From: Thuidium tamariscinum
Lineage: Eukaryota; Streptophyta; Bryopsida; Hypnales; Thuidiaceae
Length of the DNA: 64,000 nucleotides
NCBI GenBank assembly: GCA_947034885.2
Contig: OX344756.2
Location: forward strand, 19,885,489-19,949,488
Reading direction: 5' to 3'
The notes under the pieces: generated by a model
Told to the model about the DNA's origin: nothing
Databases searched by the model: none
The model's input: the letters and a program-made list of their open reading frames with translations, nothing else
Position numbers and translations under genes: made by a program
Part shown: in pieces, positions 1,186-61,521 of the stretch
Position numbering within the stretch: the first letter of the stretch is position 1
Layout of the letters: each line of letters opens with the position of its first letter

Positions 1186-2113
1186 TTAACCCTTAAAAGA
1201 CTAACATGCCTTTTTTGGCAACACAACTATTTCGCGTAGGTACATGTGACTAGAGATTTCCACATTTTGGGACCAGATTTTAATAGAAGGTGTGGATGAG
1301 GAATATCTTTAAAGCCCAACAATTTCCGTGACTTTTGATTGCATGGTTAAAAAGTTATTACATTATATGTTGTTTATTTCTCAACTTGGGCAGTTTGGGC
1401 AGATAAAAAAAATCACTTTTTTAGAAAAAAAAAATCGAAATTGGTTTTATAGATTTATATATATGTGGAAAGATTTAAATCATTTCATTTGGACTAATGA
1501 GTCAAAAGCTTTGAAGAGTTTTAGTTTGCTGGTAGTATAGATTCCCTACTCTAAAATAAACTTTGAAGTCCTTTATTTTACTCAATTTTCAATATTTTGG
1601 AAAAAAAATAAAAAAATTGGGTGTAGGTTGTTTATTACAACATTTGAACCATTGGAATTGGAAAATTTCAATTTCACAAATAAATTCTTAACAATTTAGT
1701 ATTTTGAATCATTCTCTACTTCTTTTACTTACTATTTTTTTTCTATATGTTGTCCAATTCCAAATGATTTGAAATTTTTTGAGCATGTAGCCAACTTGCC
1801 TTGGAGAATGAATCCAAAGATGCACTACCATTTTGGACTCTTTTTCATGCAAATGTGAGCTTGTAAAGTGCAGCTGCCCGGATTTTTGCAGTGATAAAAA
1901 AAGATTTTTGTAACTTCAAACACTAATATCTTGTAATCCACATGGTAAAAATTTCTGAAATTTTTTCTTTGTCTTTTCAAACCTGAATACTACAAGATCC
2001 TATGGTTATATGTGTCCCAAAACAATATTTTCTGAATATTTGGTACTTGTGTTAGAAATGGCAGTTTTGGAGGGGTTTTGGTGAAAACATAATCAAAGAA
2101 CTTTAGGGGTTAA
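1186..2113 (+). mobile_element. TTAA-flanked non-autonomous element, copy C1
   Basis: A 928-bp element begins TTAA|CCCTTAAA and ends CTTTAGGGG|TTAA, so its terminal inverted repeats (TIRs) lie inside a TTAA on each side. It has no coding capacity. A diverged full-length copy in the same orientation lies at 53732-54658; shared landmarks include the GTGACTAGAGATTTCC-type stretch near the left end and the ATATCTTGTAATCC stretch near the right end. TTAA is the target of piggyBac and of Sola3 transposons. Membership in either is an inference, since no transposase is visible. Confidence 0.75.
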
Positions 2114-5730: not shown

Positions 5731-6869
5731 TTAACCTCTAACTGCTTAAGTGACCATATATGGTCATGCAAAAAATTTCAGTTCAAATTTGAATGGGCAG
5801 TTAAATTTCTTTGACCGTTTTGAAATTTTTTTTGGGCAGTTTTCAGTGTTAACTATTAGAAACTTTCATTTTTCACAAAAAGAAAGTAAATATTTGATTA
5901 TTTAGGGGTCTTCAAAGGCATGTAAGTAACATTAGTAGAGAGTAAAACTTGCTAATTTTATTTCATTTTCCGCTTTAGTGTACAACTTGCCAATTTCACT
6001 TGATTTGAGATCTAAGAAATTGTACTTATCCAAATGATTTGAAAATGGTCCCAATAGAAAGAATATAGTATTTTCATCACTTTCGCCATTGAAAATTTGA
6101 ACGTGCAAGTGTTGATTTAAAGATTTTTGCAATTTTTAGTTATAGAAAAAATTTGTATTACAATAATTGCAAGGTGGATTGTGTAATGAATTTGATAGCT
6201 TTTCAAGTGAAATTAAGTTTTTTGAAAGTACACTTTAGTATGCTAATACTATTTGTATTTATTCATGTTACCATTAATTCCAAAAAAACTTTAATATACA
6301 AATTTCTAAACCATTGTGGAGAGAGGAAACATACTAAAAATAGAAAACATAAGGGAGGAAGTCCATAAACCGACCATCTAAGGGCTGGAACAGAATTTTG
6401 GGCAGGTCAAACATCTTGAAGTATTTTCCGGTGAATTTTTCTTGAAAGACAGCTTGAATAGGCATCTAACCCAAGTCGTTTCATATTTATTGGAGCTCTT
6501 GTAGAATTAGTTATGAATTTCTGAAGTCAAAGTGGCATAGGGCTCCTAAATCGCCCACCCCCTCAAATGTTCACTGTTTGTACATTATTGTAAAGATCAA
6601 AAAGCATCCTCTACCAGAAATATACATTTTAGAAGGTGAGCGGTTTTGGAGCCTCCTCCCTTACATTTCTCTTGTTATAATCTCACAACTCTTTTGTGAT
6701 TTTGCACTCAAAATTGATATGTAGAATAATATGCAAACTCTTAAAACATCTATACGGTTAGATTTTGAAAAAAGAAAAATTTGCTTCATTAAAGTTTACT
6801 AGAAATCAATGCTCTTTTTTCTTAAGAAAACACACTTGCCAAAGCTTACACACTTAAGGTAGGGGTTAA
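5731..6869 (+). mobile_element. TTAA-flanked element left of the kinase gene (C7)
   Basis: It starts TTAA|CCTCTAACTGCTTAAG and ends CTTAAGGTAGGGG|TTAA. Most of it matches, in inverted orientation, the element at 13738-14438: for example GGGGTCTTCAAAGGCATG here against its reverse complement near 14245. This copy carries about 300 bp (roughly 6360-6665) absent from the right-hand copy. Apparent short frames are not conserved between the copies. Confidence 0.7.
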
Positions 6870-13176: not shown

Positions 13177-13741
13177 ATTAACTCCTAAGCGTCAAAAGAA
13201 GACATTTTTTAGACATTGAAGACATGAATTCTCTGAAAAATTTGTTGATCGAATGTTATAATGTCAAAATCCGCTTGGTAGATCCTCCTCAAATTCAGTG
13301 ACATTAGATGAAATTTGGCTTTTTAAAGGGCCATTTCTTGCCGTTTCCCTCTATTGTTTCCACAACAATGAAGGAATGACTAACAACAACCATCCAATAT
13401 AAATACCAAAATAAATAAATAAAATAAAATTGGGGGGTCACTAAAATTGAAAAAAAAAATTGGAAAAAAAATTATAAAAAAAATAAATCTGACATGGTCA
13501 TCGCTTGACCACATGAGCTTTCTGTTGATCTACAATTCCCACAATTTTGCACTACATGGAAACTTATAATCTTCTTTTCACTAAAATCTCCTCTAATGTT
13601 TATAGGCACAACTAAGTTGTTTGCAAATTGGAATGGTGAAATTGTGGTTGACCAAGTATTGGTGAAGTTATTTTGTGTATTCGAGAAAGTGTAGGAAAGC
13701 TCCATATTTTTGTTGTTAATTTTGTAAGCCTTAGGGGTTAA
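13177..13741. mobile_element. TTAA-flanked element C9
   Basis: It begins TTAA|CTCCTAAGCGTC and ends GCCTTAGGGG|TTAA (565 bp). Its right TTAA is also the left TTAA of the next element, so two insertions share one target copy. The left end resembles the element start at 63816 (TTAA|TCCCTAAGCGACGTC). Confidence 0.6.
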
Positions 13742-14438
13742 TCCCTAAGTGTCTAAGCTTTGGCAAGTGTGTTTTTCTTATGAAAATAGAGCATTGGCTT
13801 GTGGTAATCTCCAATGAAGCAAATTTTTCTTTTTTCTAAATCCACCCGCATAGATGTTTTAAGAGCTTGCATATTAATCTACAATCCAATTTTGAGTACA
13901 AAATTGCAAAGGAGTTGTGATATTTTAACAAGAGAAATGTATGTTTTCTATTTTTAGTATATTGCTTCTTCCCACAATGTTTAGAATTTTGTATATCAAA
14001 GTTTTTTGCGATTAATGGTGACATGAACAAATACAAATAGTGGTAGCACACTAAAATTTACTTTCAAAAAACTTAATTTCACTTGAAAAGCTATCAAATT
14101 CATTATACAATCCACCTTGCAATTGTGGTAATACAATTTTTTTTGTATAACTAAAAATTGCAAAAATATTCAAATCAACTCTTGTATATTGAAATTTTCA
14201 ATGGTGAAAATCATGAAAATACTATACTCTTCACTAATGTTACATACATGCCTTTGAAGACCCCTAAATAATCAAATAATTACTTTTTCTAGTGAAAAAT
14301 GAAAGTTTTCAATATTTAACACTAAAAAGTGCTTGAAAAAAAAATTTAGAATGGTCAAAGGAATTTAACTGCCCATTCAGATTTGAGCTGAAATTTTTTG
14401 CGTGACCATATATAGTCGCTTAGGTAGTTATGGGTTAA
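13738..14438 (-). mobile_element. TTAA-flanked element right of the kinase gene (C8)
   Basis: It runs from TTAA|TCCCTAAGTG to TAGGTAGTTATGGG|TTAA (701 bp) and is the inverted, shorter relative of the element at 5731-6869. Landmarks include AAGCTTTGGCAAGTGTGTTT near the left end and TGAAGACCCCTAAATAATC in the middle. No coding sequence. Confidence 0.7.
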
Positions 14439-17772: not shown

Positions 17773-18057
17773 AATCTAAAGTGGGTACACCTAAAAGTGC
17801 CACTTATTCATACTGTGGTTAGTTACTGTTATTAGCTTGTTCAGATTTTCATGCAATCTTGTTGGCAAGTGAAAGCATGTTCCAACGCACCAAAGAATGC
17901 AAAATTTGGATACCATATGCAAAAGTTATTAACGGTTAAAGTCAATTTCTGAAAGTGCCATCTACAGTCTGTGAACATGACTGATTTTGGAAATGTATAC
18001 ACACTATAGATGGCGCTTTTAGGAACGTAGCACTTTTGGGTGTACCTACCTTAGATT
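17773..18057. mobile_element. inverted-repeat element E1 (CTAAGGTAGGTACACCC ends)
   Basis: Ends AATCTAAAGTGGGTACACC and GGTGTACCTACCTTAGATT are inverted repeats; the element is about 285 bp and non-coding. A full relative, in opposite orientation and split by a TTAA element, lies at 43219-44419; a fragment lies near 51293. It ends about 510 bp upstream of the TBL reading frame, so it could contribute promoter sequence. Confidence 0.75.
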
Positions 18058-33972: not shown

Positions 33973-36069
33973 CTATTTGTTGAACATTGGTTGAAATTTT
34001 GATTTCACCATGTTTCTAAAATTTTTGGAAAGAGTGTACCACACCATTTTGCATATAAATACCATGCAAATAAAACCACCTATAGCTATTGTAATGTACA
34101 TATTTGTTTGGTATTTCTTCACTGGAGGTAGAACTGCAATTCCAGCACATGAAAATGCTGCCAAAACACAAACTACAGATGCAAGGAATAGGTTGGTTGC
34201 CCAAGTGAGTTTACGCCGCAACTTTTTCATTGCCTTGATTGCATATGTATCTTCCACTACCTTGATCGCCCCAAATGTTTCCATTCCTGCAATTATAGAT
34301 GCAATTGCAAAATAGAATGATAAAGAGTTGAAGATTGCAAAGAGTTGGATGGTGAAGTGACCTTGAACGGACATGTATGAATCATTTGAGTCAGATGGAG
34401 ATGGAGCTATTGTTGGATCTACAAATTGATAATACGGATTGTATCCCAAGGGAGGTTGTAGCCATCCTCCAAATGTAATGCCAGCAATTAGAGTACCTCC
34501 TACCATGAATGCATTGGAAGAATCCACCGCCAATTGCCTCTGATTTTTAGCTTCTTCTATAGCATTTTTTACTTCTGGCCTTTGCAGTAGAAGGTTTTGA
34601 ATCTTTCTCTTCACATCTTTGGTCTTACCATTTGTAACCTTCAAATTTGTAGCAATTTCCAATGGTGTGAGGTCATTGGAATTTTTTTCATTGCAATTTA
34701 ACTGTAGTTTTGCAGTAGTACAAAATGCATCCACCACTGAAACATCCATTCTCAACACAGCAACATGCAACGGTGGTTCATGTGGAAATTTCTTCATTTT
34801 GTCCTCGACTTTGTCAAAAAAATACTGAGAATAGTATAAATGATAGGGAAGCTCCCAACTTAGCAGCTCTTGTACAATTCGTGTATGACCCATATAAGAA
34901 GCATTCCAAAGTGCCTTGGCCCAAGAGTCACCTATAGATTTCTCCCAATTAAAGTCAAAGTTTTTATCTGACTTTATACTTTTAAAATAGTACTTTAGAA
35001 GTACCCTAACAAACCCAAGATCATTTGCCGCACTTGCCCATGCCAATAATCTATCCATGCTCAAGCATCCCAAGGATCCATTGCTTTGTTTTTTATGTTT
35101 TGTCTTCTCAGCAAAAGAGAGACATTGCTCCTCTCTTTCTTGGTCAAACAAGTCTTCATCTTCAATAATCATCTTTCGAACAAGATGACAAAAGGGCCCC
35201 TCATAATCAAAATTCTTGAATTTTCCAGCTCGACCATTAGAAATTCCAGTATGCCTTGCAAGGCCCAAAAAGTAGTAGAAGCGAGCCCGGTTCCTCCAAC
35301 TCCTCTCCTTGAAGGACCTCCCATGCAAATTGAATTGTTTGGCTAGAAACTTCTCTTTGGCTTCTTTCACCAAGTTGTCGCAATGGGATTGGTTTCCATC
35401 CTCCCAGGGTCGCAATGCATTGAGAGCTTCACCAACCAATATTTCACGGTAGAGTTTGATAGATGCTACCAACCACTTAGCATCCTCTCGCCATTTAAAT
35501 GGCTTTTCCTCACCCTTGTCAACACAATAGTGCTTGAACATGATCTCTTCATCTTCATGGACTTGATCAACCAAATAAGTGTAGAATTGTTTTGGTTCCA
35601 ATTTTAAAGAAGCTTCATAATAGAAATCATCTGTGAAGCTTTGCTCTTGAAAACATGAGCTCTCATTTTCTTTTGTAACAGATAAAGCAAGGCGTAAGAA
35701 ATAGTTATAGATCTTGATTCGTCTATCCCTCCATTTTTTTCTGAATTGCCTTGGATTTTCTTTGTGAAATGAGTCATACTTCACTTTTTCATCATTTAAG
35801 ACCTTGTGAAATTGCTCCTTCATCCTATTCAGTTGCTCTTTCTCCTCAAGTGATTCTAAATTACAATTCTCTTGGAATCGAGTCATCATCAATTCCAAAT
35901 CTTCTTGTAATTCGATTGAATCATTTGGGCTAGGAAAGCAATGAGGTAAATCTTTGTCCCATTTCTCTTTTATCTTGTTTGGATACAAGGTCCTACGGAA
36001 GCAGTTGATCTCCACCTTGTCATCTAGATTTGGAAGGCTTGTTCCAACTACTTCATTTATCTCACCCAT
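33973..36069 (-). CDS. ankyrin-repeat/PGG-domain membrane protein, single exon
   Basis: An uninterrupted 698-codon frame on the minus strand, starting at ATG 36069-36067. Residues 1 to about 320 are charged, with an RKKWRDRRIKIYNYFLRLAL helix and a similar NRARFYYFLGLARHTG segment, and match no family I can name. Ankyrin-type units follow (LLAWASAANDLGFVRVLLKY, ALWNASYMGHTRIVQELLSW, PPLHVAVLRMDVSVVDAFC, LTPLEIA). From about 514 comes a PGG-type module: SNAFMVGGTLIAGITFGGWL then QPPLGY, and four hydrophobic helices at roughly 518-538, 573-596, 623-648 and 655-680. Plant proteins of this layout (ACD6, ITN1 and relatives) act at membranes in defence and salt signalling, but the function here is unknown. 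Lack of introns could mean retroposition or a naturally intronless lineage. It stands alone in repeat-rich DNA. Confidence 0.88.
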   Translation of the reverse strand: MGEINEVVGTSLPNLDDKVEINCFRRTLYPNKIKEKWDKDLPHCFPSPNDSIELQEDLELMMTRFQENCNLESLEEKEQLNRMKEQFHKVLNDEKVKYDSFHKENPRQFRKKWRDRRIKIYNYFLRLALSVTKENESSCFQEQSFTDDFYYEASLKLEPKQFYTYLVDQVHEDEEIMFKHYCVDKGEEKPFKWREDAKWLVASIKLYREILVGEALNALRPWEDGNQSHCDNLVKEAKEKFLAKQFNLHGRSFKERSWRNRARFYYFLGLARHTGISNGRAGKFKNFDYEGPFCHLVRKMIIEDEDLFDQEREEQCLSFAEKTKHKKQSNGSLGCLSMDRLLAWASAANDLGFVRVLLKYYFKSIKSDKNFDFNWEKSIGDSWAKALWNASYMGHTRIVQELLSWELPYHLYYSQYFFDKVEDKMKKFPHEPPLHVAVLRMDVSVVDAFCTTAKLQLNCNEKNSNDLTPLEIATNLKVTNGKTKDVKRKIQNLLLQRPEVKNAIEEAKNQRQLAVDSSNAFMVGGTLIAGITFGGWLQPPLGYNPYYQFVDPTIAPSPSDSNDSYMSVQGHFTIQLFAIFNSLSFYFAIASIIAGMETFGAIKVVEDTYAIKAMKKLRRKLTWATNLFLASVVCVLAAFSCAGIAVLPPVKKYQTNMYITIAIGGFICMVFICKMVWYTLSKNFRNMVKSKFQPMFNK

Positions 36070-40849: not shown

Positions 40850-42120
40850 AACGCAGTACTCCAAACCTTTCATCATGATTACGGCTTTTGCCTATCAATG
40901 GTCTCCAAATGAAGCATACTTTGGTACGTTGAAAGTCTCCCCGCCATGCTCACTGGGAATACGGAGAAAACTCGATTCTTCTAATAATTAATCAACTGAA
41001 ACTATGCTGAGAGCGGGACTCCAAGATGCTTCATCGGAGCAATTAGGTGTGTGTCCGATTTCCTTTACGTACATCTATATTTACGGGATATAAAATTCAA
41101 AGATATCTGGAGATTGAACCACTGGCAGGCGGACGACTTAACAGCTCAAATGATCGATAGGAATTTATTAGAACAGCTAGCTCGCTTTCGAGGTCCAAGG
41201 TTTACCAACTAATATTGAAACCCTACGGACGCACTGAACAAGAAGATGTTCGCCGGAATCAATTAAACAAGTTAGACCAGTGTAAGTTCATACCTTCAGG
41301 GCTCGATCTAGCTCGCTTGCTCGCTTCTTGCCTCGATCATGGACTCAGTGAAGTCGGCTCCATCAATCATCACTCACAGTCAGGTTCTAGCTAGCAACAA
41401 GCAGGACAAGTGATCAAGTTTCGTCGCTCAGCTGAAACATTCAGTGCTAGCTTTTCAGCTACGATCGTCAACCCGGCCTCTCTTGAATCACGCTGGCTCA
41501 CACGCGGCTCATGCAGCTTAACTTGGATCGAAACTGCATAATTAACTACGAAAGGAATGAGGAAGACGCATGGCTGCACAGCACCAAGCGCAGGCTAGAT
41601 ACCTGAACGAAAACCCGCGCCGCCTGCAAGTTGTGGGACTCCTCAGTCCTCACAGAGCACATAGAAGAGTCTTGGGATGGACGGACTATAGTTCTAGACA
41701 CAAGCCAGTAACATCTACTGTAAATTAATAGTACGGAGTACATATGGTAGAACCTCCTTTATTGGAGTAGGTGGGCAAGATCTTTGTTTGTGGTTCATGC
41801 TGTGGAGTGTGGAGTCAGGACCAGAAATCGATGCTCTGACAGTACTTTAATGAATTATCTAGACAGGGTTGAGCAAGGGAGGTCCTACTGTAAGTCAATG
41901 GACTGTACATGCAGCGTATGCAAGATTCCGTAAAAAGTTATTTAATTTACTTGCACGACGTTTCGTGCGGGGTTTCCTGCTGGTACTTTTTTTTATTTTA
42001 TTTTTACACAAATGAACGCGGTGCGAGTTACTGTACAACGTGCATAACATTCAGTAGGGTAGATGGCTCTAAAAGCGACACTTTAAGGGCTGATCCGCCT
42101 TTTCGTAGGTTTGCATGAAC
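40850..42120. other. balanced-composition island of unknown function
   Basis: About 1.3 kb with ordinary GC content and no similarity to repeats elsewhere in the window, unlike both flanks. Frames are short (up to 70 codons) and none has a recognised motif. A 15-codon stretch from ATG 41339 (MDSVKSAPSIITHSQ) is followed closely by a stop. It resembles a promoter/leader region, a non-coding RNA locus, or a much-decayed gene. I cannot decide between them. Confidence 0.35.
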
Positions 42121-42599
42121 AGGAATATTTTTAGCTAATTTTTCAGAGAAAGAAAAATGGATGCTGAAAGTAACACAAGTGGTTTCATATTTTTTGAAGC
42201 ATTTTGGAATTAGTTATGAATTTTCAAAGATTTCTGTAGTAGGTACCTATTTGTGACATGTAGCCCTTGTAAAATCCACTCATATGTGGTCTGAAAAAAG
42301 ATATGGCATTACCATAAACAAACATTGTGGTATGCTTAAATGGATAGAGAAGGTTTCTAAATGTGATCCTTCCTAAATCTTAAAGGAAAGAACAAATCGT
42401 TCAATAATTTCAGATTTTGTAGTACACTTAAAGAAGGTAGTTGGTCCATCAAATCTTATTTTGAAATTATTTAATGAATGGCTATTCACTAAATTGAAAA
42501 CGAATCCACTATGGCTCTTAAACCAACCATTAAAGAACTATGAACGAACCCTTGCAAAGCTCTGACACAACTAGGAGTCCATTATAGGACAAGCTCATA

Positions 42600-42930
42600 T
42601 CCATTTCAAAACCACCATAGCCCAAAGAGGTGAAACCCGTAAAGGGTGTGGCTTTTACTCACAAACGCCCGAAGGCAGAGGATAACTGCCCGAAGGCTAG
42701 AGATTGACGCCCGAAAGCGGACCTGATCGTGGCAAGTAAAAGGACCCTAAGACCGGGAGCCCGGTCATGGTTGGACCTAAAGAGGGACCGACAAGCAGCC
42801 CGAGAAAGACCCCGAAGGCGGTGAAGGAGCTAAGCAGCGAATCCTAATTGCAAGCCCTGGCAAAGCAAGGCGGGGTTGATCCTCTCGTTAGCGTAAGAAT
42901 CCAGTGAGTGCGAGCTTGAGGTTTCAGGAT
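42600..42930. other. GC-rich segment with GCCCGAAGGC repeats, possible organelle-derived insert
   Basis: The decamer GCCCGAAGGC (or GCCCGAAAGC) occurs three times within about 65 bp, followed by a GACCGGGAGCCCGGTC stem-loop and other stable-looking stems. Composition is far more GC-rich than the flanks. This looks like structured organellar intergenic or intron DNA, but I recognise no mitochondrial or plastid gene in it. Confidence 0.3.
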
Positions 42931-43166
42931 CTGGGTGGATTGGCCCCCTCGCTCGGCCTTACCATGTTTTATCATAGGTGCAATCAAAACAAAAAGCCCC
43001 CTAGTTGGGGCCATGATCACCCCTACTTTCTTCACCCTTAGCTAATTTGCGGTCTCTGATCGCAAATATGAATTCAAAATTTGCAAAAAGAAATCAGTGT
43101 GAAAAATAAAAAATTACAGCGTTTTACCCAAGTGGCCGAGCGAGGGGGTCGGTTCTCCCTACCCAG
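42931..43166. mobile_element. inverted-repeat element A3 with GC-rich ends
   Basis: Left end contains TGGCCCCCTCGCTCGGCC and right end GGCCGAGCGAGGGGGTCGG, inverted. The interior (CTAATTTGCGGTCTCTGATC to GTGAAAAATAAAAAATT) matches the interiors of A1 (23.6 kb) and, inverted, A2 (45.4 kb), whose ends are different. Confidence 0.65.
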
Positions 43167-43218
43167 GTTTCAGTAGCCCATAGAAGCACTGCCTTTCCGT
43201 TTGTGAAGTCCCCATCAC

Positions 43219-44419
43219 CTAAGGTAGGTACACCCAAAATGGCACCTGACCTTAACCCCTAAAGTCCCAAAGTCCCCTCGGGGGACACTTGGGATTTCGG
43301 GCAGGCTCGTGTGACTTGAAATTTTGACCTAATTTTTTGAAACTTTTTTTGAAGATAGGGAATCACATCAACTTTCTAAAAATATAATTTTTTTATCATT
43401 CGGTGCTTGGGAGCAGAAGTTTTGCCATCCGAAGTCAAAAAAGCAGTTCAATGGGCAGAAGAAAAAAAACCACAAAAAAATTAAATTTTTTTTTTCAATT
43501 TTTTTCCTAAAAGATTATGTTTTTGTCTACATTTGAAGCTTTGATTCATCCTATTTGGACTAATAATGAAAAAATTATGGACAATCTTGTTTTTAGGGCA
43601 ATCTAAGCATCTTTTTCAAAAAACAACTTATAGAATTCATTTTTGAATGCAATTTTCAATTTTTTTCAAATTTTTTTTTTAAAAGGTTAAATTTGTTTTC
43701 AAGAACAATCCCACCGTTGGGATTATGATTTTTTAATTCCGTCTAAAGGCTATTAACAATTTAGTATTTTGTTCAACTTTGGACCTACTTCTACTTAACA
43801 ATTTTTTTATGTGTGAAAATCAAGTTTTGACATTCTGAAATTTTTTTCTCCAACTCTCAACTCAAATGTTCAAGATAAAAAATTTTAACCTTATGGTGTG
43901 TAGTGCAAAAAAAATCCACAAATGGCCATCAAAGTCACCTGAAATTGCAGGCCGCAGTTGAAAAAAACTTTTTTTATCAACTTCAAATGCTAATATCTTC
44001 CAATCCGTACGGTCAAACTTCATGAAATTCTGACCACATGATTTGAGACAAGTGAAGTAAAAGATCCTACGGTTACATTCTAAAAAAAAGTTTTTTTGGG
44101 TTTCTTGAGTGATTGCAGCAGAATTGGCAGTTTTTAGTGGTTTCAGAGCCAGAAAATGCCTTGGTAACTTAGGGGTTAAAGCGCCCTGTACAACGTTTAT
44201 ACATTTTCAAAATCAGTCACGTACCGAGACTGTAGATGGCGCTTTCAGAAAGACACTTTGACTGTTAATAACTTTTGCATACGGTATCCAAATCTATTGT
44301 TCTTTGGTGCGTTGGAACGTGCTTTCAATCACCAACAAGACTGTAAAAAATCTATATAACATAATAACAGGAACTAGGCACAGTATGAAAAACTGGCGCT
44401 TTTGGGTGTACCTACTTTA
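43219..44419. mobile_element. inverted-repeat element E2 interrupted by C3
   Basis: Left end CTAAGGTAGGTACACCC and right end GGGTGTACCTACTTTAA are inverted. The two parts (about 33 and 240 bp) together equal the 280-bp relative E1 at 17.8-18.1 kb, with high similarity across the whole right part, including GACTGTAGATGGCGCTTTC. Confidence 0.85.
43252..44179. mobile_element. TTAA-flanked element C3 nested in E2
   Basis: A 928-bp element, TTAA|CCCCTAAAG to AACTTAGGGG|TTAA. Its length equals that of C1. The interior keeps the AATATCTTCCAATCCGTACG and GATCCTACGGTTACATT landmarks of the family. Comparing with the uninterrupted E1 shows that insertion added the element plus exactly one extra TTAA. 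Confidence 0.88.
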
Positions 44420-44459
44420 ATTCATCTGACATTTCTTGAAGTTTGCAACTTTAGTTATT

Positions 44460-44540
44460 GAATGGTGTGGGATATTCCACACCATTTCATCTGCTGGATG
44501 GAATGGTGTGGGATATTCTACACCATTTCATCCGCTGGGA
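44460..44540. repeat. 41-bp tandem dimer with internal palindromes
   Basis: Two copies of a 41-bp unit, with starts at 44461 and 44502, each containing GGTGTGGGATATTCCACACC, a near-palindrome that would form a hairpin. The copies differ at only a few bases. Confidence 0.85.
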
Positions 44541-44954
44541 GGCAGTGTGACAAGCTGCTATTGAATGTTATGTTATGCATGGTATCTACGGAAAATGTAG
44601 ATGCCAAAAAACATCTTATTTACCCAATTTGAAGACTTCTTGTAAAAGTTACATCCGTTTGAAGATCGCAGCCGGTCAACCCTAACTCATCCGATTTTGT
44701 CCGTAAACAGTGATATTCCGTCCGATATGACAACCATGAATAAAATAACACCCCCCCAGCCACAAGTGCCCTGGGGGGAGGACACGGCAAACCAAAGACA
44801 AAATACATACCAAACTGACGGGCACTAACAACAAGGACACCAGGGCTTAACACAGGACGAGCAACTAGCCAATTTGAGGGATGACGTTAAAGCTACTCCT
44901 CACTGCCCTCGGACACTTTTTGTGTGAAAATTTTTAAGAAATTTCCACCCCTAG

Positions 44955-45118
44955 CACTAGAAGAAATCTGCGTTCCATTCAACACAATTTACTTTACTAC
45001 TTTGTTGAGGCAAACGCAAAAACTACGTTTTTCTGTGTTTTTCAACGTAGTTTTTATGTTTGCCTCAACAAAGTAGTCAAGTAGATTGTGTTGAATGGAA
45101 TGCAGATTTTTTCTAGTG
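44955..45118. mobile_element. CACTA-type foldback element a
   Basis: A 164-bp near-hairpin beginning CACTAGAAGAAATCTGCG and ending TTTTTTCTAGTG. It is flanked by the 3-bp direct repeat TAG (44952-44954 and 45119-45121). Plant CACTA transposons have CACTA termini and 3-bp duplications; this is a non-autonomous foldback derivative. Confidence 0.9.
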
Positions 45119-45199
45119 TAGCCATGTCTGGCAGGCTAGCTTGTATTTGTTCTTTGCAATGAAATTTTGTTTCATTTGTGTCAAAAAATAAATAAATTT

Positions 45200-45298
45200 G
45201 AAGAAATAAACTTAAAAACTCCATTCATAGTGAACTGCCCGAAATCGCTATGTTGCTAAAAAACATAACTCAAGGGTTTAGGGGTTAAATCCTACCCT
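45200..45298 (-). mobile_element. end of a C-prime TTAA-family element
   Basis: The sequence GGGTTTAGGGG|TTAA closes a reverse-oriented relative of the element starting at 2472 (GTTGCTAAAAAACATA and ACTCCATTCATAGTGAACTG landmarks). Its other end is not identifiable. The closing TTAA is also the left flank of A2. Confidence 0.55.
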
Positions 45299-45540
45299 CA
45301 AAGGTCCGCCCAACAAGCTGGATTTACCCCAAGGAGTAAACACTACAATTTTTTATTTTTTGCACAATTTATTTTTTGCAAATTTTGAATTCATATTTGC
45401 AATCAAAGACCCCAAATTAGCTTTGAGGGGTCAAGAATATATCCAAAAATACTGCACAAAACAGGAGGCTTTTTTACTTGTATCCCAAGATAATTTGAGT
45501 TTTACTTTGCTAAGTCCACCTTCGATGGTAGAATTTAACG
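45295..45540. mobile_element. inverted-repeat element A2, TTAA-flanked
   Basis: Left TTAA|ATCCTACCCTCAAAGG and right CCTTCGATGGTAGAATTTAA are inverted, so both outer flanks read TTAA. About 246 bp. The interior is inverted relative to A1 and A3. No coding sequence. Confidence 0.7.
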
Positions 45541-45589
45541 TCTTGCCAATTTGAGCCTTTTTTTTTTTTTTTGGTATTGTGAGCAATTT

Positions 45590-45835
45590 AATGCTTGTAG
45601 GATAGACTAGTGGTTGTGGAAATCATGCATTTTGATATTGTGTGACGTCATCTACTTTGAATAAGCCAAATATAGTCATTGGAAGTCAAAGTACTATAGA
45701 AGATCTTCCTTTTCCACCCCTAATATCAAGGATGAAAAGTTGCACTGCTCTCCTACAAGGAAAGATTCTTTATCATTCAAAGGACACTAAACATCTATAG
45801 TGGCATTTAAAGATTAATTTTTATATTTGAAGAAG
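45590..45835 (+). repeat. dispersed repeat, half copy of the 60.5-60.9 kb inverted repeat
   Basis: From GGATAGACTAGTGGTTGTGG to AAAGATTCTTTATCATTCA it matches 60680-60860 in the same orientation. The opposing arm present at 60.52 kb is missing here. Confidence 0.6.
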
Positions 45836-45854
45836 CATAATTACCATTGCATCT

Positions 45855-46782
45855 TTAACCCTCAAATTCCTAGACTATGTTTTCACAAAAAAAAAACTTC
45901 AAAACTACCATACATTCAATACAAGTACCAAATTTTAGGAAAAAAACACATTTTTTCAACACATGTAATCGTAGGACCCTATAGTGCATTACTTTGAGAA
46001 GATGAGCAAAAAAATTTAGAAATTTCCACCATGCACATTTCAATGCATTAGCATTTGAGTTTACAAAAATAAAATTTTTGGTCCTGAAAAAAATGGATAG
46101 TTGTACTTTACAAGGTCAAACTTGTATGAAAAAATGTCCAAAACAGTTGTGCTTCTTTGCATTCATTCTTCAAAACAAATTTTCTACAAGCTTGAAAGTT
46201 TTCAAGTCATTTAGAACTATACAACATATAGAAAAATAATAATAAGTAGAAAGAAGTGGAAAATTATTCAAAATAGTAAATGGTTAAGTATTTATTTATG
46301 AAATTAAAAAATGTCAATCCCAATTATTTTAATGTTGCAATAAACAAGCTACATCCAATGTTTTTAATTTTTTTTAAATATTGAAGTTTGAGCAAAGTAA
46401 AGGACTTCTAAATTTATGTTTGAGTACAAAATCCATAATTGTTTAGAAATTGAAACTCCTCATAACTTTCATCTCATAATTCAAAATAGCATAATTCAAA
46501 ACTTTCTACATTTATATAAATCTGCAAAAGTCAATTTCAAATTTTGGTTGATCAAAAAAGGAATTTTTTTAGATTTGCCTCAATCGCCTAAGTAGTGAAA
46601 AAAAATGTTATACTTTTTATCCATGTAGTTAACAAGTACAAAAATTGTTGGGCCTTAAAGGTATTCCTCATCCACATATACGTTGTGTGAAAATTTTGAA
46701 GAAAAATTATAAAATTTATAGTCACTCATATCTAACCAAAATTCCTATGTTGCCAAAAAACATAGCCACTACAAGAGAAAGC
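45855..46782 (-). mobile_element. reverse-oriented TTAA-family relative
   Basis: It starts near TTTAACCCTCAAATTCC and ends near TTGCCAAAAAACATAG, with GTAGGACCCTATAGTG and GTTGGGCCTTAAAGG..CCTCATCC landmarks of the C family in inverted order. The right terminus is eroded. Confidence 0.45.
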
Positions 46783-53731: not shown

Positions 53732-54658
53732 TCAACCCCTAAAGGACCAATATGCTTTTTTTTGGCAACAAAACTATTTTGGGCAGGTATGTGTGACAAG
53801 AGATTTCCATGCTTTGGGACCAAAATTTAATAGAAGGGGTGGATAAGGAATATCTTTAAAGCCCAACAATTTTCGTGACTTTTGACGATATGGTTAAAAA
53901 GTTATTGCATGATATGTTGTTTATTTCTCAACTTGGGTAGTTTAGGTAGATAGAAAAAATCACTTTTTTTGAAAAAAAATTTAATTGGTTTTATAGATTT
54001 ATATAAAAGTGAAAAGCTTTGAATCATTCTATTTGGATTTATGAATCAAAAGTTATGAAGAGTTTTAGTTTGCCGGTAGTTATGTATTCTCTATTCTAAA
54101 ATAAACTTTGAAATCCTTTATTCTACTCAATTTTCAATATTTTTGGAAAAAATTATAAAAATTGGGTGTAGATTGTTTATTACAACATTTGAACCATTGA
54201 GATTGGCAAGTTTCAATTTTGCAAATAAATTCTTAACAATATAGTATTTTGAATCATTCTCTACTTCTTTCTACTTACTATTTTTTTCCTATATGTTGTA
54301 CAATTTTAAATGATTTGAAAATTTCCAAGCATGTAGCCAACTTGCCTTGGAGAATGAATCCAAAGAAGCACTACCATTTTGGACTTTTTCATGCAAATGT
54401 GAGCTTGTAAAGTATAGTTGCCTAGATTTTTGCAGTGGTAAAAAAAGAATTTTGTAACTTTGAGCACTAATATCTTGTAATCCACATGGTAGAAATTTTT
54501 GAAATTTTTTCCTCATCTTCTCAAACCAGCATACTACAAGATCATGTAGTTACATGTGTCTAAAAACAATAGTTTCCAAATATTTGGTGCTTGTGTTAGA
54601 AATGGAAATCTTGGAGGGTTTTTGGTGAAAATATAGTCAAAGAACTTTAGGAGTTAAA
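53732..54658 (+). mobile_element. TTAA-family element C2
   Basis: The right end is CTTTAGGAG|TTAA. The left end CCCCTAAAGGACC is preceded by TTCAA, apparently a TTAA altered by one inserted base. It is collinear with C1 (1186-2113) over its whole length in the same orientation. Non-coding. Confidence 0.75.
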
Positions 54659-55604: not shown

Positions 55605-56234
55605 TTAACCCCTAAATGCCCAAGGCACCCAAAAGTGGTGTTGAAGAAACTTTGAAGATAAATAAAACCTTACCAAATTCTTATTTTTAGTAGTTTATAT
55701 TTTTGAAGTCTAATTTTAGCATCAATAATCTGATTTTGAAAATGAATGATTATGATTTTTCTATTCAAGATTTAGTGCAATGGTACCCATTGCAATCTTG
55801 ACATTCCGCAAAAATAAGGACTCTTGAAAATGAGCCTCAAATACACTAGATCTTAGAAAAAAATCATACTAAAAATTCATTTAAAAAAATTGTAGAGTAG
55901 ATTTTGAGAAGCTATAAATTGACTGGGGTTATGCTTGTTAGGCCCTTCAATCTCATATTTTTTTGGTGACCAAATTTTAAGATTTGACATACAAAAAGAA
56001 AGCTCAAAGATTTTCATAGTTTTTACACCTTCATGATCAAACATTATAATCTTTCAATCCATGAGTGATATTGTTGTGTTTTCTTTTCCTATGTCGTCTC
56101 TAACATGTCTACTTTGAGTTTATATGGTTACAATTCAAAAAAAATTGATTCAACTTATCAAAATGTTGGATTTTTGTTCAATCTAGAGCAAATTCCAAGA
56201 AGTTCAAAACAGGCCTTGGACATTTAGTGGTTAA
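55605..56234 (+). mobile_element. TTAA-flanked element C5
   Basis: TTAA|CCCCTAAATGCCCAAGGC to GGCCTTGGACATTTAGTGG|TTAA, 630 bp, with inverted ends of about 18 bp. The element at 60895-61521 is the same subfamily in opposite orientation. No coding sequence. Confidence 0.85.
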
Positions 56235-56763: not shown

Positions 56764-57786
56764 GAAATGATATAAATAATGAACTTAATGAGGTTTGCCT
56801 AGGCAACCCTCCTTGACTAGCTAGGGATCTACCTAGGTCTTACGCAGACTCCTCCCATCAACCAAATATGAATCCACCCATGTAGACCTCCCCTAGCAAA
56901 TGCTTGTCTATGTCATTGTATTGCAATGTGAATGAGGTTATAGATAAGATTTGGAAATAGAGATTCAAAACCGACCATAGTTGATGCCATAGACTTTGTC
57001 CAAAAAGACAAAGCCAACAAATAAATAGTTTAATGCATGTACATAAATTTTTACCATTTTTGGTGGTCACCCAAGTGAATGAAAAAAATATTTCTTTAGA
57101 ATCTAACTATAGGATCTTGTACTTTATTTGTTTGAGATAATGTGGTAAAAATTTCATGAAGTTTGACTATATAGATTAGAAGATATTTGCATTCAAAATT
57201 GAAAAAAAGAATTTTCTTGGAATATTATCATACAATTTCAAATGACTTTGATTGCCATTTGTTGAAATTTTTTGCACAATCAACTTTGAATTACAAAAAC
57301 AATGTATTGAAGAATTGAATTGAGAATCTAGGAAAATAAAATTTAATTGCTTGATAGTTTTCATTCTTTAAAAAATTATTGTAGAGAGGTACATTTAACA
57401 TTGAAAGAAAAATAAAATTGTTTTTAGCTCTAAGATGGGATCAAAACACAATAATTCCAGTGGTGAGATTGTTTTAGCAAAAGAATTTAACCTAGTCAAG
57501 TAAATTTTTTTGAAAAATTGTAAAAATTACATTTAGAAATGTGTCTTGTAACTTGGAAGGGGCTATGAGCACTAGCAATAGAAAACTAGGTGTGAACAAA
57601 TGATAGGGTGCCTAAAAAATATTTGAGATAAAAATTTGAATTTGTTTTTTTATACTATAGGGTACCAAAAATGCCATGACATGTGTTGTAACTATTATAG
57701 GGTATAGAAAAGAAGGTTCAAATAGGAAAAAATTGGACCTAAGATACCCCCTTTTTAATTCTTTTTTTGGGCCAAAAGTATGAAAT

Positions 57787-57972
57787 CACTAGAAGAAAAC
57801 TGTATTAGAAATCAGCAAAACACGTGAGCTGAAATTTGTTGAGTTCCACATTTCTAGCGCAAAAATCTGCGTTGAAATGCATTCCAACGCAGATTTTTGT
57901 GCTAGAAATGTGGAACTCAACAAATTTCAGCCCACGCATTTTGCTGATTTCTAATACAGTTTTCTCCTAGTG
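57787..57972. mobile_element. CACTA-type foldback element c
   Basis: A 186-bp near-perfect hairpin beginning CACTAGAAGAAAACTG and ending CAGTTTTCTCCTAGTG. The direct repeat AAT flanks it (57784-57786 and 57973-57975). Centre words AAATCTGCGTT are shared with foldback a, so the two belong to one family. Confidence 0.92.
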
Positions 57973-58139
57973 AATGTTGGTACCTTGTAAGTGGCATATT
58001 CAACAATTTCATAGAATTTTGGTGGCTTTAGCTCACTTTAGTTGGCTATTAAAGTTGAAATTTTGACAATTCTTGATTCCCATTCCTATGTTTGTTGCAA
58101 ATGCCGTTATGTTCAAGGTGCGCTAGGATTTTGGTCAAG

Positions 58140-58560
58140 CATGTTTAGGTTTTCTACAGAATTATACTCTCCCATTGGCGGGCAACTTCCTAAATGATTA
58201 CTAGAAGGCTAGGAGCTTGCATTTATAGAGGACAAAATGACATTCACCCTCCTCCCATGCTTACTCACAACTTGCAAGGATTGGTATGACGATGTAAAGA
58301 AACTTTCGTGTTATGTTGCTCTCTGAATTGCAATGGTAGATTTCATTGTGCTAAAAGCTCATGGCATTTCTTGTGTTGGGTCATTGACAAGGAAACGTGA
58401 CATGGCATGGATAACTACCAAGTATGACTTGGCTTACTCTATGCTTTCCCGTACATGTATGGTCTTTGTAGGTGGATGTGCATTAGACCTTGTATACAAC
58501 ACCCCTAGTAGACTTGAGTGTATTGAAGCTATAGGACTTGCAATCAAAGGTGTAGAAGGC
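58140..58560 (+). pseudogene. possible captured gene fragment, unidentified
   Basis: Composition rises to near 45% GC. A frame from ATG 58333 reads through KAHGISCVGSLTRKRDMAW and GGCALDLVYNTPSRLECIEA before entering the dispersed repeat at 58563. Upstream, another frame has RLGACIYRGQNDIHPPPM. This looks like former coding sequence, but I do not recognise the family. Confidence 0.3.
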
Positions 58561-58562
58561 AA

Positions 58563-58800
58563 GGTTTTTTTTTCATTTCTTGTGAAGTGTCAAAGTGGCA
58601 ATATTTCATTTTATTGTGGAGCTCCAAATTTCAACATTCATCCATATATTGGATAAAAAATATCATATTAGCACATAATACACATCTATCATTCTATTTT
58701 CATCCATTATTTGGCGATTTCATCTACTATTTTCAAATAAATTGAAGTTTATTGGTGATTTCATCCAAAATTTTGCTATTTTTTTCCTATAGGCTTGATG
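58563..58800 (+). repeat. dispersed repeat, copy 2 (mate at 5.4-5.67 kb)
   Basis: Collinear with 5396-5670, including TCATCCATATATTGGAT and ATTATTTGGCGATTTCATC, but without the TA expansion. Confidence 0.6.
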
Positions 58801-60519
58801 CTTGGCCAAAAAAAAACACTGGTAGAAAGATAGGGATGCCAAAGAGGTCAATATTGTAGCAACAACAAAATTAGAGACAAATCTAAGACTGTATATCACA
58901 CCTTTGCAACATCCACATTGAGGCTCCACTTTGTTTGGGTTTTAGGGTATGTGCACTTGAAAAACCGTAAACCTAAACCCTCCTCATGTTAAGCACTTGT
59001 AATATGTTTATGATTACTTTTTACAAATACTATTGATTCAATGGAAACACTTCTAATGCTAGTACTGTTGTGGTGCCAGAGAGAACTTTGGCATGGAAAA
59101 ACTAGAGGCTCTGGAAGTTAGCATTCATGCTTTCATTTTTTATGGATAATGTAGGTTTTGTAAAACTTTTTCTCATCCACATCACTCTTCTAAAAGCATA
59201 TTTGTAAACTTCAAGCTTGTAATAGGTTTCATGACCCCTAAATTACTAAGCATTTGGATACTAAGATTTTTGTGTTTTTCAACACATTTTTAGCTTAACA
59301 ACATACTTTGGTTATCATCTATCATGTGCACATACAATTCCTACTCTCTAGTTTGTATGGCACTTTACAAATGTGTTGCAATTTATAAATTCTATAGGAC
59401 TTTACAAATGGTATAGTACTTTACAAAAGTTTTGCATATAAAGAAAAAAATGTGAGTGTCATGGAAAAAACAATAGTAGAAAAAAAATTGAAGTAAGATA
59501 GTATATAATATATTTGTGACAATTGGAGATTACAAATAATATATTACCCCTTGTTAATTAACCAAGTTTGAAAATTATATAATGATAGGGTGTGGAAAAA
59601 ATAATAATAATACCCCCCTCCCCACCCCCATTTATCACTTGGTGTTTGCACCTATTTCTTTATTTTTATAAGGAGTGACCCCTTTGAGTCTAGTAAGTTA
59701 TTTTTTCAAGAAGATGCTCAAATTGCCCAAAAAAACAAGATTGTTCATAACTTTCACATAAATAATCCAAATGGAATGAACTAAAACTTTACATGTACTA
59801 GATAAAAATGTAATCTATAAAATGAAAAAATTTGAAATATTAGTTTCAATTTTTTGTAGGTTTATTTTTTTGCCAGCCAAGTAGAAATTTTGAATTTTTG
59901 TGGTATAACGTTTGCTACCAAGCACTAATTGAAATAAAAAAATTATATCTTGACATAGCTAATCAATTTTCCTATTTGATGAAAAAGTTTCAAGAAGTTT
60001 CACCAAAAATTTAAGTCATCAAATGCTACCCAAACTCCAAGTTGTCTCCTAAAGGGACAATGGGCTTTTAGGAGTTAAGGGTCATAGGACACAAAGGGAT
60101 TGAAAGAAAACATAGACTTGAATAGAGTAAGGTAGTGTAAAAAAAAATTAGGATGCTAGAAATGTTCATGTAAGCTATTAATGCATCCAATGAATTTTTA
60201 AAATAATGCCATCATCATTTATACCCTTTGCACTCTACAATAGTAAGTTCTATATTGATTTATGTGAAGATAGTTAAATGAACTATACATAATTTTCCTT
60301 TCATGTTAACGGGGGAATGTAGGCACCTTGCAATCTTAAACTACACCTTCAAAATCCATAAATCAACCACATTTTATCATCACAAAGAATTTGCTCTCTT
60401 TCACAACCACTTGTATTGTTTTTGGTACTCCCCTATGGTTGATTCTTTACCCATAAACAACATTGAGGCCATTTTTTGTTTAATGAATAAGAAGGACTCT
60501 CTCTATATAGGGTAGAAAT

Positions 60520-60894: not shown

Positions 60895-61521
60895 CTACCC
60901 CCTAAATGCCCAAGGCTTGTTTTAAGCTTCTTGAAATTTGTTCTACATTGAACAAAATGCCAATATTTTGATAAGTTGTATCAATTTTTTTTGAATTGTA
61001 ACCATACAAATAAAAACTAAACATGTTAGAGATTGCATAGGAAAAAAAATACAACAATATCACTTATTGAGTGAAAGGTTATAATGTTTGACCATGAGGG
61101 TGTTAACATCCTTTTTTCACAAGTCAAATCCGAAATATTCGTGACCAAAAAAATATGAGGTCAAAGGACCTAACATGCACAACTCCAATCAATTTATGGC
61201 TTCTCAAAATCTACTTTACAATTCTTGAAAATGAATTTTGAATGTGATTTTTTATTCACAATCTAGTGTATTTGAGACTGATTTTCAAGATCTCTTAACA
61301 CTACAGAAAGCCAAGATTGCAATCGGTACCCTTGCACAAAATCTTAAATAGAAAAATCACTATCATTTATTTTCCAAATCGTATTTTTGACATAGAAACT
61401 AGACTTCTAAAAGAATTTCCCAAAAATATAAACTACTAAAAATAGAAAATTGGTTAGGTCTTATTTAACTTCAAAGTTTTACAAACACTATATTCTGATG
61501 CCTTGGGCATTTAGGGGTTAA
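60895..61521 (-). mobile_element. TTAA-family element C6
   Basis: The right end is GCCTTGGGCATTTAGGGG|TTAA; the left end CCCCCTAAATGCCCAAGGC has a mutated flank (CTAC for TTAA). 627 bp, inverted relative to C5 with which it is collinear. Confidence 0.8.

Follow-up and report, generated by a model that had tools for sequence, protein, structure and literature searches.

The window analysed here, a stretch of 64,000 nucleotides from the moss Thuidium tamariscinum, encodes PMR5N and PC-Esterase domains, and an open frame of 698 aa on its minus strand (33973-36069) carries a PGG domain. The element of main concern, C3 (43256-44175, plus strand), is 920 bp long, is bounded by the ends CCCCTAAAGTCCCAAAGTCCCC and CCCCTAAGTTACCAAGG, has no transposase match and very probably belongs to the piggyBac superfamily as a non-autonomous, MITE-like element. 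It is adjoined by two TTAA tetranucleotides, which on the basis of empty sites are the left (43252-43255) and right (44176-44179) copies of a duplicated target site. C3 splits a host MITE, E2 (43222-44417, plus strand), which has the TIR AGGTAGGTACACCC and TA outside its ends at 43220-43221 and 44418-44419. An earlier note, made from the letters of the window, had placed C3 within E2 at these coordinates, with CCCCTAA ends and TTAA on both sides, and this arrangement is confirmed. The ends of C3 are inverted repeats of 19 nt including the TTAA (84% complementary), and E2's own ends outside C3 span 20 nt (95% complementary). A search of the window with two piggyBac proteins at 1e-5 found no transposase sequence. 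With ends and no gene, C3 would depend on a coding relative.

E is an abundant small element itself, with 2,945 first-look candidates in the genome, AGGTAGGTACACCC ends and TA outside both ends. The uninterrupted copy E1 (17773-18057 in the earlier note's coordinates, minus strand) had been taken as the empty counterpart of E2. Its spacing fits this role, but the TTAA itself is absent from its version of the target site (CCTAAAAGCGCC, compared with CCTTAAAGCGCC in E2 minus C3). Since the site in E1 is mutated, E1 was dropped as the reference and other E copies of the genome were used as empty sites. The search query consisted of the E2 flanks joined at a single TTAA, and 40 main matches were scored among the first-look candidates, with a weak inverted piece as a 41st row. 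Uninterrupted copies made up 38 of the 40, a proportion that gives no estimate of occupancy because the joined query favours such copies. All 15 copies fetched, the best-ranked of these 38, read CACCTGACC-TTAA-AGC with one TTAA and no insert. This comparison of filled and empty sites shows that C3 duplicated its TTAA target. It also bears on the idea that the TTAA belongs to the element's own inverted repeat and that no target is duplicated. Such an arrangement would account for the TTAA that adjoins nearly all copies examined, but the empty E copies already contain exactly one TTAA, and two abutting elements in the window appear to have a single TTAA in common (13738-13741), so that this idea has very little to recommend it.

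The two interrupted E matches are the window copy and the locus L002. At least 4.2 kb around C3 (window 41719-45919) recurs on the same contig as an inverted duplicate of 99.6% identity, at a distance of about 3 Mb, and L002 is this copy. It was therefore rejected as an independent insertion and is counted as a duplicate of one event. A different situation is seen at L003 on contig C2, where a C3-family element occupies the same TTAA of an E copy and points the same way, and the outer flanks are unrelated. Relative to the majority sequence of 24 copies, the window C3 and the L003 C3 have 30 and 27 derived bases, of which only 1 is common to both, the level found between unrelated copies; the L003 copy has 9 derived bases in common with each of L038 and L012. 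With just one common derived base the insertions look independent, and the simplest reading of the sequences is that C3-family elements apparently entered one and the same TTAA of E twice. Movement of E plus C3 as one unit is disfavoured by the same count, and gene conversion could also have supplied the second C3-family copy in E.

TTAA was tallied at insertion boundaries across the genome, as the earlier note had proposed. Left ends of C3 were sought with 22 bases and at most one mismatch, the flank not being part of the pattern, and 150 were found; the reversed pattern gave 0. One hundred of the 150 ends were listed, all of them exact, and the 67 of these on contigs C1-C5 were used for the left flank, since for these contigs the list of exact ends bearing TTAA is complete. 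TTAA lies directly outside 62 of the 67, and the five exceptions are each one base off (CTAA, TTAT, TTTA, TTAT, TTGA). On the right side, TTAA adjoins 26 of 26 distinct places with a full-length match, which derive from 28 of the 38 loci L001-L038, the window and L002 representing one event. On the left, TTAA is present in 27 of the 28 full-length rows, a biased count given that TTAA was part of the pattern by which most of these loci had been chosen; the exception is L010, a relative with 71% identity. In a genome search with a query that spans C3 and both TTAAs, 37 of 37 main matches begin at query position 33-34 and finish at 960-968, which are the two TTAA positions. These 37 exclude the window's own match, the duplicate L002 and the E copy in L003, and one of them is in two pieces; at least two (contig C3:36197037 and contig C5:30237745) have a one-base variant of the left TTAA. 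Three further rows of this search are weaker partial relatives.

Insertion at TTAA with duplication of TTAA, as in the piggyBac superfamily, was thus found. The empty site alone cannot separate a piggyBac-type element from a TA-duplicating Tc1/mariner-type transposon with the ends ACCCCTAA and a strong preference for TTAA, because at a TTAA target the duplication of TA plus a terminal A yields identical filled and empty sequences. A transposon of the latter kind would leave the outer bases free to vary, but the outermost T, at position -4, is kept in 66 of the 67 left flanks and is as constant as the inner bases. Insertions at NTAN sites have so far been confined to TTAA, and piggyBac transposases are what the sequenced coding elements with such ends encode, as described below. 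A Tc1/mariner-type origin is accordingly very improbable.

Besides C3, the window contains several other elements with CCCCTAA-type ends. Exact CCCCTAA occurs 22 times against 6.0 expected (0 of 100 shuffles reach 22), and 8 of the 22 have TTAA directly outside, against about 0.2 predicted from a window TTAA frequency of 0.0082 per position. Eight further elements with TTAA on one or both sides had been proposed; an exact TTAA lies outside the noted end in six cases (1186, 5731, 13177, 13738, 38886 and 55605), but 53732 has TCAA and 60895 has CTAC at this position. A diverged relative of C3 (38890-40565, minus strand; 1,676 bp, TTAA on both sides) is 68% identical to C3 over 714 bp and 68% identical over 193 bp to the 3' end of a coding element (L077). 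Another relative (57082-60074, minus strand), which encloses about 2.1 kb of other sequence, is 70% identical to C3 in two pieces and has a right-end TTAA; its left end was not found. A 920-bp element (1190-2109, plus strand; TTAA on both sides) is 87.5% identical to a 918-bp element (53736-54653, plus strand) that has TCAA on the left and TTAA on the right. The first bases of this family resemble those of the coding element L063/L074/L075 (CCCCTAAAGGACCAA), but BLAST at 1e-6 gave no match between them and a relationship is not claimed.

At 13182-14434, two back-to-back elements of different families appear to use the single TTAA at 13738-13741, as expected if one was inserted at the target of the other. 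The first is a 556-bp candidate (13182-13737, plus strand; TTAA on both sides) in which the pairing of the ends is inferred, and the second, of 693 bp (13742-14434, plus strand), also has TTAA on both sides and is 86-88% identical in three pieces to a copy of its family at 5735-6865 (minus strand). The latter copy, with TTAA on both sides, is broken by other sequence, and about 203 bp within it match, at 94% identity, the DNA that immediately flanks a recent coding copy (L057:4000-4200). A 622-bp element (55609-56230, plus strand; TTAA on both sides) has 14 of its first 16 end bases inverted. Its 619-bp copy (60899-61517, minus strand), with CTAC on the left and TTAA on the right, has 16 of 16 inverted and is 78% identical to it.

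Genome-wide, TTAACCCCTAAA occurs 19,746 times on both strands, compared with 111 occurrences of the reversed pattern; the window's C3 has a right end (CCCCTAAG) that falls outside this count. In the first 2.8 Mb of contig C1, where 100 places were listed, 22 neighbouring pairs of ends face each other within 8 kb, and half of these pairs (11/22) enclose 922-931 bp. We estimate, by inference rather than by census, that the genome holds CCCCTAA-type elements on the order of ten thousand. C3 and the 1190 family, at 918-920 bp, agree with these 922-931 bp pairs in their uniform length. Within the C3 family, the mean K2P distance is 0.045 among 24 copies, and the distances to the majority sequence are 0.010-0.044. 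C3 has the properties of a MITE: it is 920 bp long and non-coding, it has many near-uniform copies, and its ends are common to a coding transposon.

Coding relatives were sought with the transposase model PF13843, which gave 116 scored matches among 658 candidates (245-276 bits, cut-off 22.4) and 0 matches in 14 control genomes. The earlier note had called for long members with the same ends and a DDE transposase, and one such member is C7:1354927-1360069 (contig C7), which measures 5,143 bp from TTAA to TTAA and contains a frame of 774 codons, defined as an open frame with no start codon assigned. Its left 106 bp are 82% identical to C3 (6e-26) and its right 303 bp are 74% identical (7e-51); within the C3 interior (107-625, about 520 bp), a single 21-base stretch matches it. 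As in C3, the two ends of the coding element are unlike each other beyond the first bases. Inverted ends starting with CC or CCC are a mark of the piggyBac family, and they are seen in C3 and in the coding elements. At the right end of the C7 element (L072:104-132), a second TTAA lies 8 bases past the right TTAA and adjoins GGGGG (TTAATTTGGGGGTTAA), perhaps as a remnant of another end. Two sister copies on contig C2 share these ends and are flanked by different bases: C2:44474392 is 96% identical over all 774 residues, and C2:25812556 is 97% identical over residues 303-774 and 92% over 1-206. Between two coding copies dN/dS is 0.51 overall (0.0188/0.0366); in residues 246-774, where changes are few, dN (0.0137) is not below dS (0.0121), and the comparison gives no sign of selection on the catalytic core.

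The 774-codon frame matches the transposase of Trichoplusia ni piggyBac (6x67/6x68) at 8.9e-33 and piggyBat (9c0f) at 2.1e-22 (phmmer, residues 298-681), and PF13843 is the sole Pfam match of two coding frames at E<=0.001. In the alignment with T. ni piggyBac, residues D268, D346 and D447, which form the catalytic triad of that enzyme according to the available text of PMC7351741, are matched by D429, D518 and D636 of the frame. The C-terminus contains cysteines and histidines, and the HMMER alignment to piggyBat in this part is below significance. Coding relatives that have the same ends as C3 and carry a PF13843 transposase were thus found. Sola3 and Kolobok are further superfamilies with TTAA targets, and TTAA duplication alone cannot separate them from piggyBac. 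The transposases read between such ends, however, match PF13843 and T. ni piggyBac, and there is no need to invoke Kolobok, which makes an assignment to either superfamily highly unlikely. The earlier proposal of a new piggyBac- or Sola3-derived group stands in its piggyBac part, and its Sola3 part finds no support in the transposases read. The designation as a new group was too strong, given that all 116 scored matches fit the existing model far above its cut-off; what is new is at most the host, the abundance and the recency, the superfamily being known.

C3 would be moved by a piggyBac transposase whose gene lies elsewhere in the genome, most likely in the C7:1354927-1360069 lineage or a close relative. 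This enzyme would bind the CCCCTAA ends and the adjoining DNA, excise C3 and join it into a TTAA, which is duplicated in the process. By analogy with T. ni piggyBac, the ends would be paired, cut via hairpins that carry the TTAA, and joined to a bent TTAA target, and the same chemistry, including seamless excision, may operate in the moss elements. Mobilisation of C3 by such a transposase appears likely, and the C7 lineage is probably its actual partner. C3 may have arisen from a coding element by loss of the interior. With its interior mostly unmatched and its ends 82% and 74% identical, it is not a simple deletion of the coding copies seen, and a more similar coding partner may have escaped notice or died out.

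Within the same interpretation, C3 could be a piggyBac-type MITE mobilised by a different or extinct piggyBac lineage rather than by that of C7:1354927. The diversity of the transposases is in keeping with this variant, since grouping 35 loci at 80, 60 and 45% amino-acid identity yields 17, 8 and 3 clusters, and a TTAACCC end lies within 1.5 kb in 21 of the 30 loci L039-L068; so is the 18-26% divergence of C3 from the ends of the C7 element, together with its largely unmatched interior. Among the transposase loci fetched, many of which were read without one or both of their ends, a match to C3 beyond the terminal bases is confined to the C7 lineage (L048/L076, L077, L078), and we regard mobilisation by another lineage as a tentative possibility. 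The C7 lineage is kept as the probable partner.

Another coding lineage contains very recent copies. It comprises 11 loci with an open frame of 1,023 codons. Over 3,984 bp up to the 3' TTAA, 9 of the 11 are identical (the reference included) and two differ by one base, and the 11 right flanks all differ. Three of them are available at full length, 5,096 bp, with 0 mismatches from TTAA to TTAA and different flanks. As judged from these sequences, the lineage has moved very recently, and the C3 family looks older than it. At one locus of this lineage (L052), the coding copy sits directly at the end TTAA of an element in its 3' flank that is 85-88% identical to the 1190/53736 family. TTAA-inserted piggyBac-type elements are thus abundant and young in this genome, and strikingly so for a land plant. 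We lean towards the view that a piggyBac radiation has long resided in this moss, has diversified into at least three deep transposase lineages and is still moving, with coding copies of very recent date and TTAA-inserted derivatives on the order of ten thousand. If so, piggyBac would be a main shaper of a land-plant genome, and a plant would possess an endogenous system for seamless excision.

The piggyBac family is known chiefly from animals. T. ni piggyBac resembles the moss elements in its TTAA target, as given in the accessible parts of PMC8086355 and PMC7351741, in its inverted ends and in the aligned D268-D346-D447 triad. A C-terminal cysteine-rich domain may be a further resemblance, as the 774-codon frame has cysteines and histidines towards its end. 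The moss elements differ in the size of the coding copies (5,096 and 5,143 bp, against 2,472 bp for IFP2 in the text available), in their ends CCCCTAAA, in a long N-terminal part ahead of the matched core, and in their host. Asymmetric ends are needed by T. ni piggyBac in cells (PMC7351741, available portion). The piggyBat element of Myotis lucifugus (9c0f) belongs to the same superfamily and has a mammalian host; it is likened here by protein only. The piggyBac-like MITEs of corals, from an animal host, are likened by description only, through a MITE paper whose available text uses the term "piggyBac-like" 32 times (PMC2872659). The Stowaway and Tourist MITEs of plants are likewise small and are classified by their inverted ends and target duplications; however, their duplications are TA and TAA/TTA, and they belong to the Tc1/mariner and PIF/Harbinger superfamilies (PMC10004981, in the parts available).

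According to the earlier note, the abundant small elements of land plants do not usually derive from piggyBac, and the literature accords with this view in part. A MITE survey of 207 plant genomes, including four bryophytes, lists five superfamilies and Micron, with piggyBac absent from the main text as available (PMC12550479), and six TIR superfamilies are named in a review of transposons in land plants, whose available main text also lacks piggyBac (PMC9033089); the word is likewise absent from that of a second plant review. On the other hand, PiggyBac is included among the MITE superfamilies of angiosperms in the accessible text of PMC10004981, the occurrence of piggyBac-like elements in plants is stated broadly in those of PMC8086355 and PMC10813416, and a fern repeat table gives 1,230 PiggyBac entries, amounting to 0.00% of the assembly (PMC6890710, in part). 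No report of piggyBac in a moss was found among the literature matches listed, which cover few subscription papers, and the available text of a moss genome paper contains "piggybacking" and no piggyBac (PMC10619864). Since plant piggyBac-like elements are already in print (PMC8086355, available portion), the moss elements extend a known kind.

Current schemes for plant MITEs and TIR elements that omit piggyBac would misfile elements such as those of this moss. If active, the moss system would provide a transposase that is native to a plant and may excise without a footprint, and elements with a common TTAA offer a simple way to test how targets are chosen. Contamination is unlikely, since the elements are carried by chromosome-sized contigs. 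The LEAFY DNA-binding segment of the genome finds its best match in the structure 4bhk, with 238.5 bits against 173.2 for the next one, and carries D at a position occupied by H in 2vy1. We take 4bhk to be from Physcomitrium and 2vy1 from Arabidopsis, and D at this LEAFY position presumably marks mosses; by this comparison the segment supports a moss host.
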